NCBI GenBank assembly: GCA_944328495.1
Contig: CALVHR010000004.1
Location: forward strand, 35,222-99,221
Direction of reading: 5' to 3'
Origin: an uncultured Clostridia bacterium
Lineage (GTDB): Bacteria; Bacillota; Clostridia; Christensenellales; Borkfalkiaceae
Length of the DNA stretch: 64,000 nucleotides
Under the pieces are notes generated by a model. It made no database searches, had not been told where the DNA came from, and saw only the letters and a list, made by a program, of their open reading frames with translations. The position numbers and the translations under genes are program-made. Shown here in pieces: positions 4,889-51,976 of this stretch. Position 1 is the first letter of the stretch. Every line of letters begins with the position of its first letter.

Positions 4889-6103
4889 TTAACTCAATTC
4901 CGCAACCCTTTCGATATATTTGAGCTCTTCTTCGCACGGCGTCACTGTATCGGAAGCTTCCGATGCCTGCGCATACGTAAATACGTTTTTCGTCGATGCC
5001 TCAAGTTCAGGCGCCGTCTGGTGTGCATAATCTTTTCGGTTCAGGACGGAAAAATCTCCTACAACATAATAGCGAAAATCCGCCGTAAGAATGACCGCAC
5101 CCGTTCCGCTCGCTTCCCAAAGCCCCTGATAAAAAGCCAAAGCTTCGGTCAAAGGCATGCAGAATCCTGCGGTCGAATACGCATCGGCAAGCGCCCCCGC
5201 CGAGGGTACCGAAAGAGGTACGATTGCCGTAATACTGATCACCCCGTTGTCAGAAGGCTTGCCCGTCGCGGGATCGATTATGTGCGAATAGATCTTCCCG
5301 TCATAAACATAAAAGCGATAGGTATCCGCACTTGTACTGATCGCTGCGTCATGAATATCCGTAAGAAAGAGTGCGTCCGACGCGGAAGTCGTAAGCTTTC
5401 GGGGATTTTCGATCCCTATATTGTATCCGCGGAGCAAGGAACCGTCATGCTTTTGCCCGAGAAAAACCGTATTTGAAAGAACGCTCAACGTACATTCCAC
5501 CGTCTTTCCGCTGTATGCATTGCGGATATATTGCGCCGCGACATCACCCATGTATCCTTTCGCAATCCCGCCGAAATCAAGTTTTGTTTCTCCGTTTTGT
5601 TTCGATACGGTATTGTTTTGCCCGATACGTATGTCTGAAATCGAAGACGCCGCCTTTGCAACCGCAATTTCCTGCTCCGACGGTTCGGCGCGAGTCTGTG
5701 AATACAGCCCCTCGTATTCCGGCGTAAATTTCCAAAGTTCGCTCAAGTTATACAAAGCCGTGGAAAAAGCGCCGTCCGTCCTCGCATACAAATTTTCGCT
5801 CATTTGCAACATCGCATACGTGTGTTCCCCGACAATCAGTTCTTCCCCCGCCGCCGCACGATTGATGCGCGACACGTCACTGTCCGGTTTTTCAACACTG
5901 ACTTCATCCTCGATCGAAAACAACAATGCGGAAATTTCTTCTTTGAGCTTGTTCCTCTCCGAAACAGAGATCGGTTCCCCGTCCACATACACTTCCTGAG
6001 ATATTTCAAACTCTATAAAATAATCTTTTGTCCCCTCCTGCGAACATGCGGCAAAGGGAATAAAAAGCAAAACAGCCGCAAGCAATAGCCGGATTTTGCG
6101 CAC
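4889..6103 (-). CDS. apbE: FAD:protein FMN transferase (ApbE)
   Basis: Attaches FMN through a phosphoester bond to threonine in Dxx(S/T)GAT-type motifs of Rnf/Nqr subunits and other flavoproteins, outside the membrane. 404 residues with a lipoprotein-like signal (hydrophobic run, then FAAC at residues 17-20). Core motifs: DFGGIAKGYM and HIIDPATGKPSDNG, then VPSAGALADAYSTAGF. GTG start at 6103, five bases after GGAGG. It lies 20 bases behind degV. Likely substrates in this window are RnfG and the RnfD with three extra motif-bearing modules at 48469-50625. Confidence 0.94.
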   Translation of the reverse strand: MRKIRLLLAAVLLFIPFAACSQEGTKDYFIEFEISQEVYVDGEPISVSERNKLKEEISALLFSIEDEVSVEKPDSDVSRINRAAAGEELIVGEHTYAMLQMSENLYARTDGAFSTALYNLSELWKFTPEYEGLYSQTRAEPSEQEIAVAKAASSISDIRIGQNNTVSKQNGETKLDFGGIAKGYMGDVAAQYIRNAYSGKTVECTLSVLSNTVFLGQKHDGSLLRGYNIGIENPRKLTTSASDALFLTDIHDAAISTSADTYRFYVYDGKIYSHIIDPATGKPSDNGVISITAIVPLSVPSAGALADAYSTAGFCMPLTEALAFYQGLWEASGTGAVILTADFRYYVVGDFSVLNRKDYAHQTAPELEASTKNVFTYAQASEASDTVTPCEEELKYIERVAELS

Positions 6104-45874: not shown

Positions 45875-46669
45875 TCAATGTTCTTTAATACATTTGCGCG
45901 GACATTTTTCCACGCATATGAGACATCCGATACATTTGGAATAATCAATTTCGGGAAGCCCGTTTTTCATTTCGATCGCTCCCTGCGGGCAATTTTTCGC
46001 ACAGATCCCGCAACCGATACAGCCGTGCCGGCACAATTCCATAACGTCTTTGCCCTTCCCGTGGTTGGAACAAGCAATAAATACCTTTGCGCTTTTCGGA
46101 ATACGCGATATGATTTTTTTCGGACAATCGGCTATGCAAACACCGCAAGATGTACATTTTTCTTTATCCACGACCGCATAACCGCCGTCTTTTACAGTGA
46201 TCGCGCCGTACGGGCATACACCCGCGCAGGTCTTTTTTCCGATGCATCCGACCGGACAAGCCTTAATACCGCCCGCAATCAGTTCACAGGAAGCACAGTC
46301 CCCGTAACCTTGATAGTCGTATTTATTATAGCACGCATGCCCGCCGTTGCAATGAACGACGGCAACCGTCTCTTCTCCGATCTCCCCGCCGCCAAGGATC
46401 TCTGCGATCTTTTCCTTGTTCGCCGTCGGAGTCGCCCGACAGTCGGAAAGTTTTGCTTCCCCTTTCACCAGCGCTTCCGCAAATTGCGCACAACCCGCCT
46501 TGCCGCAACCGCCGCAATTGGATTTCGCAAGAAGATTTTCAACCTTTTCGACCCGTTCGTCGCGCTGCGCTGCAAAAGCGTTGGAACATATAACGAGTAT
46601 TACGCCGAATACTACGGCGATTGCGAGCATAATGCCGCCCGCCAGCAAGATCTGTACGAGTGTATCCAT
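45875..46669 (-). CDS. rnfB: Rnf complex subunit B (ferredoxin-like)
   Basis: 264 residues. N-terminal membrane helix, then a 4Fe-4S domain (CGGCGKAGC with a later cysteine) and several ferredoxin-type clusters (CASCELI, CTSCGVCIADCP, CIGCGICAKNCP, CIGCLICVEKCP). Accepts electrons from cytoplasmic ferredoxin and passes them to the complex, which pumps sodium or protons while reducing NAD. Last gene of rnfCDGEAB, the usual clostridial order. Confidence 0.96.
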   Translation of the reverse strand: MDTLVQILLAGGIMLAIAVVFGVILVICSNAFAAQRDERVEKVENLLAKSNCGGCGKAGCAQFAEALVKGEAKLSDCRATPTANKEKIAEILGGGEIGEETVAVVHCNGGHACYNKYDYQGYGDCASCELIAGGIKACPVGCIGKKTCAGVCPYGAITVKDGGYAVVDKEKCTSCGVCIADCPKKIISRIPKSAKVFIACSNHGKGKDVMELCRHGCIGCGICAKNCPQGAIEMKNGLPEIDYSKCIGCLICVEKCPRKCIKEH

Positions 46670-46680
46670 ATATGCCCTCC

Positions 46681-47271
46681 TTACGCCAAAATGCCCGAAA
46701 ATCCCGCAAACGCCATTGCCATAATTGCCGCGGTCACCAATGTGATCGGGAAACCTTTAAAGCATTTCGGAATATCCGCTTTATCCGTTTTCAGGCGCAC
46801 TCCCGCCAGCAGACAAATCGCAAGCAGGAACCCGACGCCCGTCGCGACGGATACTGCAAACGCTTCAACAAAAGAATACGTCGCCGCATTGAATACCACG
46901 ACACTGTTTGCCGTTCCGAGAATGGCACAGTTGGTCGTGATCAGCGGAAGATATACGCCCAGTGCGCTGTATAACGTAGGAGAAAAACGCTTCAGGATCA
47001 TTTCTAAAAGCTGCACGAGACTTGCGATGACAAGAATGAATGCCATCGTATACAAATAATCGATCTCCAGCGGCAGCAATATATAATTATATGCAAGCCA
47101 ACAGAAGACTGAAGCGATCGCCATGACGAAAATGACCGCAAACCCCATTCCGGCTGCACTGGACATTTTCTTCGAAACGCCCAAAAACGGGCAGATGCCC
47201 TGATACTGCGAAAGTACAATGTTTTGCGATATGATCGCCGCAAACATGACCGATATCAACGATGCTGTCAT
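46681..47271 (-). CDS. rnfA: Rnf complex subunit A
   Basis: 196-residue membrane protein with six helices. NIVLSQYQGICPFLGVSKK at the N-terminus contains the conserved cysteine that, in Nqr/Rnf structures, binds a membrane iron-sulfur cluster together with RnfE. Start overlaps the rnfE stop. Confidence 0.96.
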   Translation of the reverse strand: MTASLISVMFAAIISQNIVLSQYQGICPFLGVSKKMSSAAGMGFAVIFVMAIASVFCWLAYNYILLPLEIDYLYTMAFILVIASLVQLLEMILKRFSPTLYSALGVYLPLITTNCAILGTANSVVVFNAATYSFVEAFAVSVATGVGFLLAICLLAGVRLKTDKADIPKCFKGFPITLVTAAIMAMAFAGFSGILA

Positions 47272-47942
47272 TTTGCCGCCTCCCCGCTGCTCTCAACAAC
47301 CCCTTCGGACAGAGGCAGTGACGCCGCTTTCATTTTTTCTTTTCGCTCATTGACTTTCTGTATCACAAAATTGAAAAGAGCCATCATGCACCCGAATACA
47401 ATAAACCCGAACGCGCTCGCCCCGACACCTTCCATGACAGGGAAACCAGAGATCGCAAACCCCGCAAACGAACCGTTCGCAAAAAACTCACGCACGATCC
47501 CGATCAGACAAAGGGCCCCCGTAAAGCCAAGCCCCATCGATACGCCGTCCAAAACGCTGTACAGCGGTTTGTTACAGGAAGCAAAGCTCTCCGCCCGAGC
47601 AAGAATAATGCAGTTTACAACGATCAGTGCGATAAACGCCTGCATCGTCGAGTACAAATCGGGCAGATACTTCTGCATCACCATCTGCACAATGGTAACA
47701 AAAGTGGAAATGATCACGATATAACACGGAATGCGCACCTTGTCGGGAATGACGTTCCGCAAAAGACTGACGAACAAATTGGAGAAAATCAGAACAAAAG
47801 TTGTCGCCACACCCATCGCAAAAGCCTGAAACAGACTGGTCGTCATCGCGATCGTCGGACACGTTCCCAACACCAAGACAAATGTCGGATTGTTTTTGAT
47901 CAGGCCGCCCAGAACGGTCTCTTTCATACGATTCCTGTTCAT
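47268..47942 (-). CDS. rnfE: Rnf complex subunit E
   Basis: 224 residues, six helices; GGLIKNNPTFVLVLGTCPTIA carries the conserved cysteine paired with RnfA. Overlaps rnfG and rnfA by four bases each. Confidence 0.96.
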   Translation of the reverse strand: MNRNRMKETVLGGLIKNNPTFVLVLGTCPTIAMTTSLFQAFAMGVATTFVLIFSNLFVSLLRNVIPDKVRIPCYIVIISTFVTIVQMVMQKYLPDLYSTMQAFIALIVVNCIILARAESFASCNKPLYSVLDGVSMGLGFTGALCLIGIVREFFANGSFAGFAISGFPVMEGVGASAFGFIVFGCMMALFNFVIQKVNERKEKMKAASLPLSEGVVESSGEAAK

Positions 47943-48472
47943 GATTGCCCTCCCGCTACGTTTTCTTTATAGTACTGCACGACTGCGTCCACCGCATTCC
48001 GCACTGCATCCGAACTTTTTGTAGCGCCTGAAACAGCATCCGCCGCAAATGCATCCAAAGAATTGACGTCCTTTCCGATAAAGTTTGAATAATAATTTGC
48101 CGAATCCAACTTATTCAAAAATGTTTCGGAGTTATCGCCAGCAATAATCTTTTCGATCTTCGCGTCAGTTACGTAAATATATAACTGCACATTTCCGCCG
48201 TACCCGCCGCTGCCTTCGGCAACAAACGCATGCGTCGTACCGTCATCGGAAACCGCATAGTACGAGACCAAACCGTTTTCGTAACTTTTCCCTTCGTCGT
48301 CCGTCATTTTACTGAACGTTTTGCCCGTATCCTCCGCGAATCGGTCATACGCAGACTGCAACGGATCGACATACGTTATGATATGAAACGCACCGAGAAG
48401 CAAACCGCTGACCAACGCGATCGCCGCGAGGACCAGCACGCACTGCAACATGGATTTTACTTTTGCCGTCAT
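47939..48472 (-). CDS. rnfG: Rnf complex subunit G (covalent flavoprotein)
   Basis: 177 residues: one N-terminal membrane helix (8-32) and an outer FMN_bind domain ending in DAVSGATKSS. Thr151 in the D-x-x-S-G-A-T motif is the predicted covalent FMN site set by ApbE. Overlaps rnfD and rnfE by four bases each. A complete rnfG is therefore present as well as the FMN_bind-like tail of RnfD. Confidence 0.95.
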   Translation of the reverse strand: MTAKVKSMLQCVLVLAAIALVSGLLLGAFHIITYVDPLQSAYDRFAEDTGKTFSKMTDDEGKSYENGLVSYYAVSDDGTTHAFVAEGSGGYGGNVQLYIYVTDAKIEKIIAGDNSETFLNKLDSANYYSNFIGKDVNSLDAFAADAVSGATKSSDAVRNAVDAVVQYYKENVAGGQS

Positions 48473-50625
48473 GCCGCACCACCTCCCAAAACTTCAAAAC
48501 ATTCCAGTATCATGGCGCGAAGCGAAGCATTCGTATGCGTCGCCGATGTCTGTGAATCGGTCGAAAGATCGCTCAAAGCAGAAATTTCCGCAGACGTCTT
48601 TCCCTCAAAAAGCGACAGTTCCGCAACATATCCCATTGTGCTCTGCTTCAACGGAACGACGGTTTCAACTTTTGCGTCTTTTATAACGACGTAGAACAAA
48701 AGCGGCTGCTGATAATTATATTCTTTCAAATCGGCCACGCCTTCCACAAGAAAGGCATTCCCGCCGAACAGCGCCGACTGCGCCGCACCCTTAATATAGC
48801 TATAACCGCCATACAGTGCTTCAGCACCAGCATGCGCGTCCGACGCGATAAAGCACTCTTCGATCATTCCTTTCAATGCGGTGTTTGTGCGCGTCGCAGA
48901 TGTCTGCGAATCGGTCGAAAGATCGCTCAAAGCGGAAATCTCTGCAAACGTTTTCCCTTCGAACAGTGATTCTTCCGCAACATATCCCATTGTGCTCTGC
49001 TTCAACGGAACGACGGTTTCAACTTTTGCATCTTTGATCACGACATAGAACAAAAGCGGCTGCTGATAATTATATTCTTTCAAATCGGCCACGCCTTCCA
49101 CAAGAAAGGCATTTCCGCCGAACAGCGCCGACTGTGCCGCACCCTTAATATAGCTATAACCGCCATACAGTGCTTCAGCACCAGCATGCGCGTCCGACGC
49201 GATAAAGCACTCTTCGATCATTCCTTTCAATGCGGTGTTTGTGCGCGTCGCAGATGTCTGCGAATCGGTCGAAAGATCGCTCAAAGCGGAAATCTCTGCA
49301 AACGTTTTCCCTTCGAACAGTGATTCTTCCGCAACATATCCCATTGTGCTCTGCTTGATCGGTTCGATCTCCTGCACGACCCCGTCTCCCAACGTAATGC
49401 TGTATTCGAGTTCCTGCACGTAATCGCTTCCGTCAAATTTTAAAGAGCCCTTTACATCAAAATAATAATTACCCAATGCATCGACAGACATTGTCTGGAT
49501 GTAATTATATTGCACCGGGAGTTCCTGTTCCTGCGGGCGCCTTCTCTCGGCCGCATATACAATCGGCGTCGAAACGACAAGCGCCGCGACAAGTGCGATG
49601 CAAATACCGCGCATCGTCCACTGCATGATCTGCGGTTTTATTTTACCGCTCTTGGTAAGCTCCCCGAACCGTACAGGCAAAATAAATTTGTCCATGATCG
49701 GAACAAGCAAGTTCATGATCAGAATCGCAAGAGAAGTACCCTCGGGATAAGAGCCAAACCTGCGAATCAACATCGTGATGATTCCAAGCCCGATCGCATA
49801 GAGAATACGGTTATAACGCCATTTCGGGGAAGTCGCATAATCGGTCGCCATAAACACGGCACCGAACATCAAGCCGCCCGAAAGCAGTTGCAACAAAATT
49901 TCCGACGCGCTTTGATAGCAAACAAGAACCATAACGGAAGCGGTCAGAAGATACACGACGGGAATGCGCCAGTCGATCACGCGCCGCGCCGTCAGATATA
50001 CCCCGCCCGCAAGGATTGCGACTTTACAGGCTTCGCCGATGCTTCCGCCGATATATCCGAACAAAAGCTGCAAGACGTAACCCCAGTAACCGCTTACGCC
50101 CCAAAAAGAATCTTTGAAAGCTGCAACCCCTCCGGACAAATAAGTAGCTCCCGTCGTCACGTCGCCCGCGAGCATATTGGAAACATCCGCGCCGACATAT
50201 TTCGTCATTAAGCTCGAATAAGCGAGAAGCAAAAATACGCGCGCCGTCGCCGCGGGGTTTGCAAAATTCTTGCCCAGCCCGCCGAACAGCATTTTTACAA
50301 TGATTATTGCAAATACACCGCCGATGATCGGAATGTACCAAGGCGCGCGCGGCGGCAGGTTTAATCCGAGAATCAGGCCCGTCACGACACAAGATAAGTC
50401 GAACGTATACGGCTTTTTGCGTACAAGATTGTAAATTTGTTCGGACACGAAACATGTCGCGACACAGACCGCAACGAGCATGAGCGCGTACAATCCGTAA
50501 AACACGACGCCGCAGACAAGGCAGGGCACCATTGCGATCAGAACATCCGCCATGATCCTGCGGGTATTGGATGAATCCAATTTGTGCGGCGAGGCTGCCA
50601 CTTTATAATTTTTGATCTCAGCCAT
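48469..50625 (-). CDS. rnfD: RnfD fused to three tandem FMN_bind-like modules
   Basis: 718 residues, twice the normal RnfD length. Residues 1-325 are a complete RnfD/NqrB-type membrane core with its flavinylation motif DVTTGAT (Thr161) and the usual end (ILPVRFGE). A further membrane helix (about 336-358, followed by AAERRRPQEQ) leads into a soluble tail. The tail carries three modules ending in DSQTSATRT, DSQTSATRT and DSQTSATHT, with candidate acceptor threonines 460, 578 and 696. The repeat spacing is 118 residues. Each motif keeps the D-x-x-T-x-A-T pattern but has Ser for Gly. Two repeat units are identical in protein. The tail looks like an RnfG-type FMN_bind domain that was fused and multiplied. 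Confidence 0.9.
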   Translation of the reverse strand: MAEIKNYKVAASPHKLDSSNTRRIMADVLIAMVPCLVCGVVFYGLYALMLVAVCVATCFVSEQIYNLVRKKPYTFDLSCVVTGLILGLNLPPRAPWYIPIIGGVFAIIIVKMLFGGLGKNFANPAATARVFLLLAYSSLMTKYVGADVSNMLAGDVTTGATYLSGGVAAFKDSFWGVSGYWGYVLQLLFGYIGGSIGEACKVAILAGGVYLTARRVIDWRIPVVYLLTASVMVLVCYQSASEILLQLLSGGLMFGAVFMATDYATSPKWRYNRILYAIGLGIITMLIRRFGSYPEGTSLAILIMNLLVPIMDKFILPVRFGELTKSGKIKPQIMQWTMRGICIALVAALVVSTPIVYAAERRRPQEQELPVQYNYIQTMSVDALGNYYFDVKGSLKFDGSDYVQELEYSITLGDGVVQEIEPIKQSTMGYVAEESLFEGKTFAEISALSDLSTDSQTSATRTNTALKGMIEECFIASDAHAGAEALYGGYSYIKGAAQSALFGGNAFLVEGVADLKEYNYQQPLLFYVVIKDAKVETVVPLKQSTMGYVAEESLFEGKTFAEISALSDLSTDSQTSATRTNTALKGMIEECFIASDAHAGAEALYGGYSYIKGAAQSALFGGNAFLVEGVADLKEYNYQQPLLFYVVIKDAKVETVVPLKQSTMGYVAELSLFEGKTSAEISALSDLSTDSQTSATHTNASLRAMILECFEVLGGGAA
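48636..49344 (-). repeat. Two 354-bp tandem repeats inside rnfD
   Basis: Units 48637-48990 and 48991-49344 align without gaps and differ at about six positions, all silent. A third, partial and more diverged unit extends to about 48481. The spacing of the shared marker CCCATTGTGCTCTGCTT (at 48632, 48986 and 49340) is exactly 354. Confidence 0.93.
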
Positions 50626-50626
50626 A

Positions 50627-51913
50627 TCAGATCTTCCTCTCCGCTATGATTTTTTTCGCGAGCTTCACGCTCTGCGTCAGGAAACGCTTTGCGGGGCAGA
50701 CATACGAACAACAGCCGCAGCCGATGCAAGCCGACGCGCCGTAACGCTTTGCCTCCGCGAAATCCTTGCGGAAAAGCGCTTCCTCGATGAACGTCGGCGA
50801 CAGTCCCATCGGGCATGCCTGCACGCACCTGCCGCAACCGATGCACGCCGACGCTACTTTCCCCTCGCTTTCGCTTTCATCCAGGAACAGCAAGCTGGAA
50901 GAAGTCTTTCCCGTGCAAATTTTTAAAGAGAACACGGAATCGCCCATCATCGGTCCGCCCGATACGATCCGCGCGCAGTCTTCCCTGCCGCCGCAAAATT
51001 GCGCCAGCGCACGAAAAGGCGTGCCGTTTTTCACCCAAAGATTTTTCGGAGTTTCCACCGCCCTGCCGCTGACCGTCATCACGCGCTCATAACAGGGGAT
51101 ATCCAGGTCCACTGCCCTGTGAATGGAAAAAGCAGTGTGCACATTCACAACGACCACGCCCGCATCGACGGGAAGTTTCCCTTCCGGAATCACTCTGCCC
51201 GTGCAACTGTATACAAGCTGCTTTTCTGCACCCTGCGGATACAGTGTCCTCAGCGCGCGCACCGTAATATTCCCGCCGCACTTTTCCGACAAAGCCGCGA
51301 TCGCGTCCGGCTTGTTCTTTTCAATGCCGATGACAGCGCTCTTTGCTCCGCAGGCGAGCATGGCAAGCTCAACGCCGCGCAGTATCTCGTCCGTATATTC
51401 AAGCATTAAACGATGATCGCATGTGATATAGGGCTCGCATTCCGCGCCGTTCACGACCAGGACGTCTGCCCTGCCTCCTACGTTCAGCTTCGCCGCCGTA
51501 GGAAAACCTGCGCCGCCCATTCCGACAATGCCCGCTTCTTCTACCCGCGCAAGCACGCTCTCCCGCGTAACTTCGCTCAGATGCGGAAGCAACATCGATT
51601 CGTCCGAAAAATCGTTTTCGATAAGAATATGATCCTTTTTTTTGCCGGAAACGGTAATGTGCCCGACAACTCCTTTGACCGTACCCGCAACGGGCGAATA
51701 CACGTTTGCGGACAGCCCTTCTGCTTTCTTCGCAACCAATTGCCCGCGAAGCACACGATCTCCCGGAGCAACGATCGGTTCTGCGGGCGCGCCGATATGC
51801 TGCGACAAAGGCAGCCACACACTCTGCGGCTCCGGTCCCCTCTCGATCTTCTGACCGGCAGACAGATCTTTGCATCCCGCAGGATGCACGCCTTTTTTGA
51901 ATGATTTCAACAA
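50627..51913 (-). CDS. rnfC: Rnf complex subunit C (NADH-side)
   Basis: 428 residues. N-terminal FKKGVHPAGCK, Rossmann-like FMN/NADH domain (GMGGAGFPTAAKL; NGAECEPYITCDHRL), SLBB segment and C-terminal clusters CIGCGRCVQACP and CIGCGCCSYVCP. Transfers electrons to NAD. The likely start is TTG 51913, seven bases behind GGAGG. The in-frame ATG at 51946 has GGAG only one base away, which is too close. Confidence 0.94.
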   Translation of the reverse strand: MLKSFKKGVHPAGCKDLSAGQKIERGPEPQSVWLPLSQHIGAPAEPIVAPGDRVLRGQLVAKKAEGLSANVYSPVAGTVKGVVGHITVSGKKKDHILIENDFSDESMLLPHLSEVTRESVLARVEEAGIVGMGGAGFPTAAKLNVGGRADVLVVNGAECEPYITCDHRLMLEYTDEILRGVELAMLACGAKSAVIGIEKNKPDAIAALSEKCGGNITVRALRTLYPQGAEKQLVYSCTGRVIPEGKLPVDAGVVVVNVHTAFSIHRAVDLDIPCYERVMTVSGRAVETPKNLWVKNGTPFRALAQFCGGREDCARIVSGGPMMGDSVFSLKICTGKTSSSLLFLDESESEGKVASACIGCGRCVQACPMGLSPTFIEEALFRKDFAEAKRYGASACIGCGCCSYVCPAKRFLTQSVKLAKKIIAERKI

Positions 51914-51976
51914 AGATACGCCTCCGATATCATCTTTTGCGCACATTCTCCGAATATGCGGTACATACTGTTATTA

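Follow-up and report, generated by a model that had tools for sequence, protein, structure and literature searches.

Among the ion pumps of anaerobes, Rnf has a central place; its electron path is usually depicted as a U that connects ferredoxin and NAD+. Multi-flavinylated forms of one of its subunits, RnfG, have been described in RNF gene clusters, some of them from Christensenellales and with a multiheme domain, and it is from these clusters that outward electron flow from Rnf, along a second path to outside acceptors, has already been proposed (Meheust et al. 2021, PMC8238504). The window considered here is a 64,000-nucleotide stretch of an uncultured Clostridia bacterium (assembly GCA_944328495.1, contig CALVHR010000004.1, positions 35,222 to 99,221 of the forward strand), and the gene in question is its rnfD, a minus-strand open reading frame of 718 residues (the plus-strand frame at the same coordinates has stops). 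Its RnfD core is followed by a C-terminal tail of three modules, each with a candidate site for flavin mononucleotide (FMN). The tail shares with the published RnfG arrays the bacterial order and the putative placement of extra FMN sites on the outer side of RNF. In those clusters, however, it is RnfG that is extended, whereas in the window a single-domain RnfG accompanies an RnfD that bears the array of modules behind an added helix; Pfam matches no heme domain in the window's RnfD. What appears to be new is the multi-module tail on RnfD, multi-flavinylated RnfG being already known.

Several FMN_bind domains are also found in SaFMN3 and CbFMN4 (PMC10339131), the latter being the top, albeit weak, structural match of the RnfD modules. 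These are separate soluble proteins with the canonical DxxxGAT motif, whereas the motifs of the RnfD modules mostly end in SAT. In Nqr/Rnf-like complexes (PMC8238504, PMC11334425), an NqrB/RnfD-like domain bears a C-terminal fusion, and outward electron flow has likewise been proposed. As described there, however, the part fused on is a cytosolic NAD-binding domain, and no flavin site is present in the membrane domain; Pfam detects no cytosolic NAD-binding C-terminal domain in the window's RnfD, the C-terminus of which is predicted outside. In M. acetivorans, RNF is joined by a multiheme cytochrome (PMC12174285), an added conduit that is likewise presumed to lead to other acceptors or to the outside, with the hemes on a separate protein and not, as here, candidate flavin sites on RnfD.

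The RnfD tail and its occurrence in the genus

The N-terminal part of the protein is a full RnfD core, scoring 339.8 bits against PF03116 (cut-off 27.7) and 270.8 bits against TIGR01946 (cut-off 207.05), with the flavin motif DVTTGAT at residues 155-161, as an earlier reading of the DNA made without database searches (the sequence-only reading) had stated. Beyond it, a short segment of positive charge leads to a predicted helix (residues 332-361) and three repeats of about 118 residues, the repeat unit being 354 bp long. The single added helix, hydrophobic enough for a membrane helix, and the three DSQTSAT motifs, whose last Thr residues fall exactly at 460, 578, and 696, are likewise as that reading had them. 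In the full-length model (predicted local distance difference test, pLDDT, 75.7; predicted template modelling score, pTM, 0.57), the predicted succession of strands and helices does not differ between the three modules; the tail blocks mostly reach 75-94, and parts of the core fall below 50. Matches of the tail to NCBIfam HsaB and Pfam Inv-AAD are both below cut-off and were dropped.

The window genome comes from a genus of uncultured gut bacteria, presumably Candidatus Borkfalkia, which NCBI places in the Christensenellales. RnfD was detected in 37 of the 40 genomes of this genus that were searched, and all 37 possess the tail, at least in part; the three genomes without an RnfD match (74, 75, and 89% complete) have no PF04205 match either. 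Since at least part of the tail is found in every RnfD-bearing genome, it is beyond chance and no isolated oddity, and its gene structure and conservation are solid. The number of modules varies. One module is found in 13 of the 37 genomes (split over two contigs in G324) and two in 17, the count being uncertain in G328, where the gene is divided between contigs, and in G305, where it has a frameshift. Three genomes have three modules (the window genome, G297, and G298), three have four (G316, G334, and G318), and one, G329, has five. This natural series of one to five modules is a ready comparison of chain length. In G305 (L099), the RnfD frame is broken inside the core, with two matches in different frames, due to a frameshift or an assembly error.

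Relation of the modules to FMN_bind domains

Relatives, profile comparison, and modelling jointly, and no single test among them, support the view that the tail module is an RnfG-like FMN_bind module. A C-terminal PF04205 match, which the sequence-only reading proposed to look for in RnfD proteins, is lacking in the window's RnfD, RnfG being the only match of the whole genome, but is found above the cut-off of 22 in two genus genomes (G303, 24.9 bits; G325, 22.4 bits). The tail of G321 reaches 20.6 bits, below the cut-off, and the other genus tails have no match at E ≤ 0.001. Taken singly, 21 of the 72 complete modules match PF04205 at E ≤ 0.1, the best at 2.7e-5. Comparison of the tail profile with the genus RnfG profile yields an E-value of 2.8e-5 and a probability of 74%, with DxxTSAT in register with DxVSGAT. 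A tail-only model finds 27 of 36 genus RnfGs at E ≤ 10 (best 5.2e-5), a weak test but a non-circular one; equally weak is a model of the window's three modules, with which 3 of 36 are found at E < 1e-3. The RnfG scores from an iterated module model are not usable as support, this model having absorbed RnfG itself.

The AlphaFold 2 model of a single module, calculated from 55 sequences, is confident (pLDDT 85.9, pTM 0.82) and comprises four strands, one short helix, and a last helix, near the start of which the motif Thr is located. The same placement of this Thr has been described for CbFMN4 domain 1 (PMC10339131) and for RnfG (PMC9588780). As modelled, with four strands and a single short helix ahead of the final one, the module differs from CbFMN4 and SaFMN3. 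In a Foldseek search of the PDB, CbFMN4 domain 1 ranks first and second (8p2b on top), with E-values of 0.22 and 0.46 and TM-scores of 0.38/0.51. Modelling of the tail, also proposed by the sequence-only reading, hence returns an FMN_bind domain as the best match of a confident fold, at a high E-value. The modules' FMN_bind-like character, as claimed, is supported by relatives, profiles, and models, but not by PF04205 in the window's own modules.

Conservation of the candidate flavin sites

Sites were counted in 72 modules from 36 genomes, three incomplete ones among 75 pieces (two from G324, one from G328) being excluded. Asp and Ala of the motif are present in 72/72 modules and the acceptor Thr in 71/72, the exception being module 3 of G329; all three are among the best-conserved residues of the module. 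The Gly position is occupied by Ser in 55 modules, Gly in 16, and Asn in one, and the S/T position by Thr in 53, Phe in 8, Leu in 6, Val in 2, Ser in 2, and Ile in one. TSAT is found in 36 modules and TGAT in 16, that is, in every module with Gly. Among the 35 readable RnfD cores of the genus, the classical motif ends in GAT in 13, [ST]APT in 15, [TS]SAT in 5, and otherwise in 2; the final Thr is kept in 35/35 and Ala in only 19/35. Because the core motif is the looser of the two, the tail sites are kept about as strictly as the classical RnfD site, and more strictly at Ala.

Two side observations concern these motifs and modules. The 15 cores with an [ST]APT ending (among the readable cores of L064-L099) represent a drift of the classical motif towards Dxx[ST]APT, with the final Thr retained. 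Furthermore, a Cys in the last helix of the modules (ECF/LECF; Cys591 in the window protein) is kept in 70/72 modules and has no counterpart in the genus RnfG consensus; it might take part in a disulfide or a dimer, or act as a redox partner.

The substrate motif of ApbE, the flavin transferase, is D-x-x-[S/T]-G-A-[S/T] (PMC12052999). In its strict form it is absent from the window's three tail motifs, which have Ser for Gly, and present in 16/72 modules of the genus. The sequence-only reading had noted this Ser and made it the main doubt; the replacement stands, but the doubt is largely answered by the TGAT modules and by Ser or Thr in other RnfDs. The flavin-bearing residues Thr156 of A. woodii RnfD (PMC11889175) and Thr153 of C. 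tetanomorphum RnfD (PMC9588780) close the motifs DTVTTAT and DGVTTAT, respectively (numbering checked on the sequences). Since these solved RnfDs carry their flavin on DxxTTAT, Gly is not required for flavinylation in RnfD. In the 28 best-scoring relatives of the order (L007-L034, which are not a random sample), 27 RnfD cores are readable, with Ser at this position in 16 (15 TSAT, one SSAT), Thr in 5, Gly in 3, and other residues in 3. The Ser-for-Gly tail motif would be a test of the real recognition rule of ApbE.

Topology of the tail

RnfD of A. woodii has ten membrane helices (PMC11889175), and in C. tetanomorphum the N- and C-terminal ends of RnfD both reach into the cytoplasm (PMC9588780). 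With the C-terminus of the core in the cytoplasm, an eleventh helix would bring the tail outside, and the tail is therefore predicted to be extracytoplasmic. In 35 genus proteins, the added helix has a mean net charge of +4.6 on its N side and -0.4 on its C side, a split that matches the positive-inside rule.

Growth of the tail by tandem duplication

The motif half (51 codons) is identical in modules 1 and 2 of the window, and the first half is 97% alike in modules 2 and 3; this pattern indicates that a two-module ancestor gained a hybrid middle module by one recent out-of-register tandem duplication. The two copies of the duplicated unit differ at six of 354 nucleotides, all six differences being synonymous, and their longest exact run is 221 nucleotides. 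As six out of six would have a P of about 1.5e-4 if unconstrained, both copies appear to have been preserved by selection; a less likely alternative is the tandem assembly of strain variants.

In a tree of the modules, those of the same genome group together for modules 2 and 3 of the window, G334, G318, and G316, and for modules 3 to 5 of G329; first modules, and likewise last modules, tend to group across genomes. The tree is based on few columns, with 34 of its 69 inner branches well supported. From the grouping within genomes, the extra modules seem to have arisen by repeated separate expansions. For the 22 closest of the 54 module pairs, the ratio of nonsynonymous to synonymous substitution rates (dN/dS) is defined in 21 and ranges there from 0.09 to 0.65, and the duplicated modules show signs of purifying selection.

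Distribution beyond the genus

A search of the order with the whole protein gave matches in 203 of 297 genomes; among the matches listed, none beyond the genus has a tail, all of them ending at or before query residue 358, ahead of module 1. A search of the class with the module profile matched one of 391 genomes, the window's own, and a search of plasmids for the tail gave no match. Scanning contigs with two peptide patterns matched 40 stretches, from which 24 loci were kept, all 24 attributable to the genus. Five of the six long-frame RnfDs from the class matches listed have no tail, the sixth being a fusion (see below), and neither have seven of the eight from the phylum matches listed, the frame of L151 being unread. 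This survey outside the genus covers the matches listed, long frames G035, G144, and G182 excepted, and other fusions may exist.

The fusion mentioned above belongs to G418, from another Clostridia family (L135, 5022-6689, minus strand), and joins RnfD and RnfG in a protein of 555 residues. Its operon is ordered rnfC-(rnfD-rnfG)-rnfE-rnfA-rnfB, with no separate rnfG between the fusion and rnfE at this locus. As in the genus protein, the RnfD core continues into an added hydrophobic stretch, and an RnfG-like module bearing a flavin motif closes the polypeptide. In contrast, the single module of G418 replaces RnfG and has the canonical LSGAT, whereas the genus tail is extra and repeated. By analogy, such a fusion may be a model for how the genus tail began. 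The sequence-only reading knew of no described RnfD-multi-FMN fusion. This holds for multi-module RnfDs, which are not reported in the titles, abstract openings, and passages of the open literature (subscription papers and the supplements of PMC8238504 apart), but has to be qualified in view of the G418 fusion and of the published multi-flavinylated RnfG.

Proposed function and alternatives

We give about an even chance to the reading in which the tail is an FMN_bind-type array on RnfD that is flavinylated and acts as an extracytoplasmic relay to outside acceptors. Small RnfG-like modules in tandem would be held outside the membrane by the added eleventh helix. ApbE, which is found in 38 of the 40 genus genomes, would attach one FMN to the last Thr of each DxxTSAT or DxxTGAT motif, bringing the window's Rnf to five covalent FMNs (RnfD core, RnfG, and three tail modules). 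At the outer face, the tail flavins would swap electrons with those of RnfG and RnfD and open a side path to acceptors beyond the membrane, while the usual return to RnfC and NAD+ would continue. Flavinylation of the tail, electron flow, and an outside acceptor are the steps that we infer. A broader and more tentative picture, on the doubtful side, is that of an Rnf wired outward, in which a covalent-flavin chain on RnfD, extended by repeated tandem duplication and with a length of one to five units that evolves between species, would lead electrons from ferredoxin or NADH to an acceptor located within the cell wall or farther out, the ion pump still working. Conserved outer flavin-type sites on every detected RnfD of the genus would make such outward flow testable.

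Several observations weigh against the relay. PF04205 has no match in the window tail, searched as whole protein and as tail, even at E ≤ 1; no Foldseek E-value is ≤ 0.001, which makes the best one suggestive at most; and a PDB profile search with the module returned two unrelated matches and no flavin protein. Phe, Leu, Val, or Ile occupies the S/T position in 17/72 modules, and the RnfD site and the FMN_bind site have different surroundings. In a fumarate reductase substrate, replacing Gly by Ala cut flavinylation to about 50% (PMC12052999), and by analogy Ser for Gly in the tail motifs may lower the flavin yield. The 13 genomes with a single module have no wire. Finally, the genus yielded no other FMN_bind protein as next carrier, in a search that missed most tails and that a diverged partner could escape too: all 37 genus matches to PF04205 are at rnf loci, 34 in RnfG and three in the RnfD tail. 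This leaves, as outside acceptor, a small molecule, a mineral, a diverged FMN_bind protein, or some other type of protein. The window's genome has 12 matches to PF00890 reductases, none of them named as acceptor.

The single modules and the lack of another detected FMN_bind protein would also suit modules that are flavinylated but operate inside the ordinary RnfG-RnfD step, as an electron buffer or docking flavins speeding or smoothing transfer, with no outside acceptor. A separate RnfG is kept alongside the tail in the window as well as in each of the 36 tail-bearing relatives, and the drift of the core motif to [ST]APT in 15/35 cores looks as if a tail flavin could partly take over, both of which fit such a role. 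Up to five modules per protein, however, exceeds the need of a local step, and nothing puts every module close to RnfG; we regard this explanation as possible but rather doubtful. It is unlikely that the modules keep the FMN_bind fold without being flavinylated, with a structural role or as binding domains, perhaps for the cell wall or to keep RnfG in place. The replacement of Gly in 56/72 modules, the S/T position, the absence of a Pfam match in the window tail, and the conserved Cys, which has no known flavin role, would agree with such domains; yet few residues of the module are conserved better than the motif's Asp, Ala, and Thr, 16 modules have the canonical TGAT, and RnfDs with Thr at the Gly position do carry flavin. 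An assembly artefact, in the fusion or in the repeat count, is very improbable. The genome is a draft of 56 contigs, and the exact 221-nucleotide run exceeds common short reads, leaving the count of three and not two modules here not beyond doubt. Nevertheless, the tail occurs in all 37 RnfD-bearing genomes of the genus, the duplicated copies differ by synonymous changes, and multi-module tails are found elsewhere, more diverged in G297, G298, G316, G318, and G329, with a near-identical pair in G334.

The rnf operon of the window

The operon around the window's rnfD is complete, in the order rnfC-rnfD-rnfG-rnfE-rnfA-rnfB, with the start of rnfG overlapping the stop of rnfD by 4 bp (ATGA). The coordinates of its genes and of the RnfD features are gathered in Table 1.

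Table 1. Features of the window discussed in the text (positions in the window).
Feature	Position	Strand	Remarks
rnfD with C-terminal tail	48469..50625	-	718 aa
RnfD core, PF03116 (residues 9-321)	49663..50601	-	E 1.9e-101; TIGR01946 270.8 bits
Core flavin motif DVTTGAT (residues 155-161)	50143..50163	-	
Extra membrane helix (residues 332-361), predicted N-in/C-out	49543..49632	-	prediction and charge
Tail module 1 (residues 374-474)	49204..49506	-	
Tail module 2 (residues 491-592)	48850..49155	-	
Tail module 3 (residues 609-711)	48493..48801	-	
Motif DSQTSAT, candidate acceptor Thr460	49246..49266	-	
Motif DSQTSAT, candidate acceptor Thr578	48892..48912	-	
Motif DSQTSAT, candidate acceptor Thr696	48538..48558	-	
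First copy of duplicated 354-bp unit (residues 424-541)	49003..49356	-	
Second copy of duplicated 354-bp unit (residues 542-659)	48649..49002	-	
rnfC	50627..51946	-	TIGR01945 469.8 bits (cut-off 245.95)
rnfG, separate, single FMN_bind	47939..48472	-	PF04205 38.7 bits (cut-off 22)
rnfE	47268..47942	-	NF009070 220 bits (cut-off 184); TIGR01948 206.2 of 213.4
rnfA	46681..47271	-	TIGR01943 224.1 bits, slightly below cut-off 229.3
rnfB	45875..46669	-	TIGR01944 91 bits (cut-off 68.7)
apbE (flavin transferase) match	5126..5965	-	sole PF02424 match in the genome; outside the rnf operon

Neither rnfA nor rnfG reaches its TIGR cut-off, and RnfG stays far below that of TIGR01947 (26.1 of 102 bits). The window's RnfG, 177 residues long, has one FMN_bind stretch only and is therefore not of the multi-flavinylated type. 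In the alignment, some RnfGs of the genus have two residues inserted behind the motif, or a motif that ends in SST, NAT, or GST.

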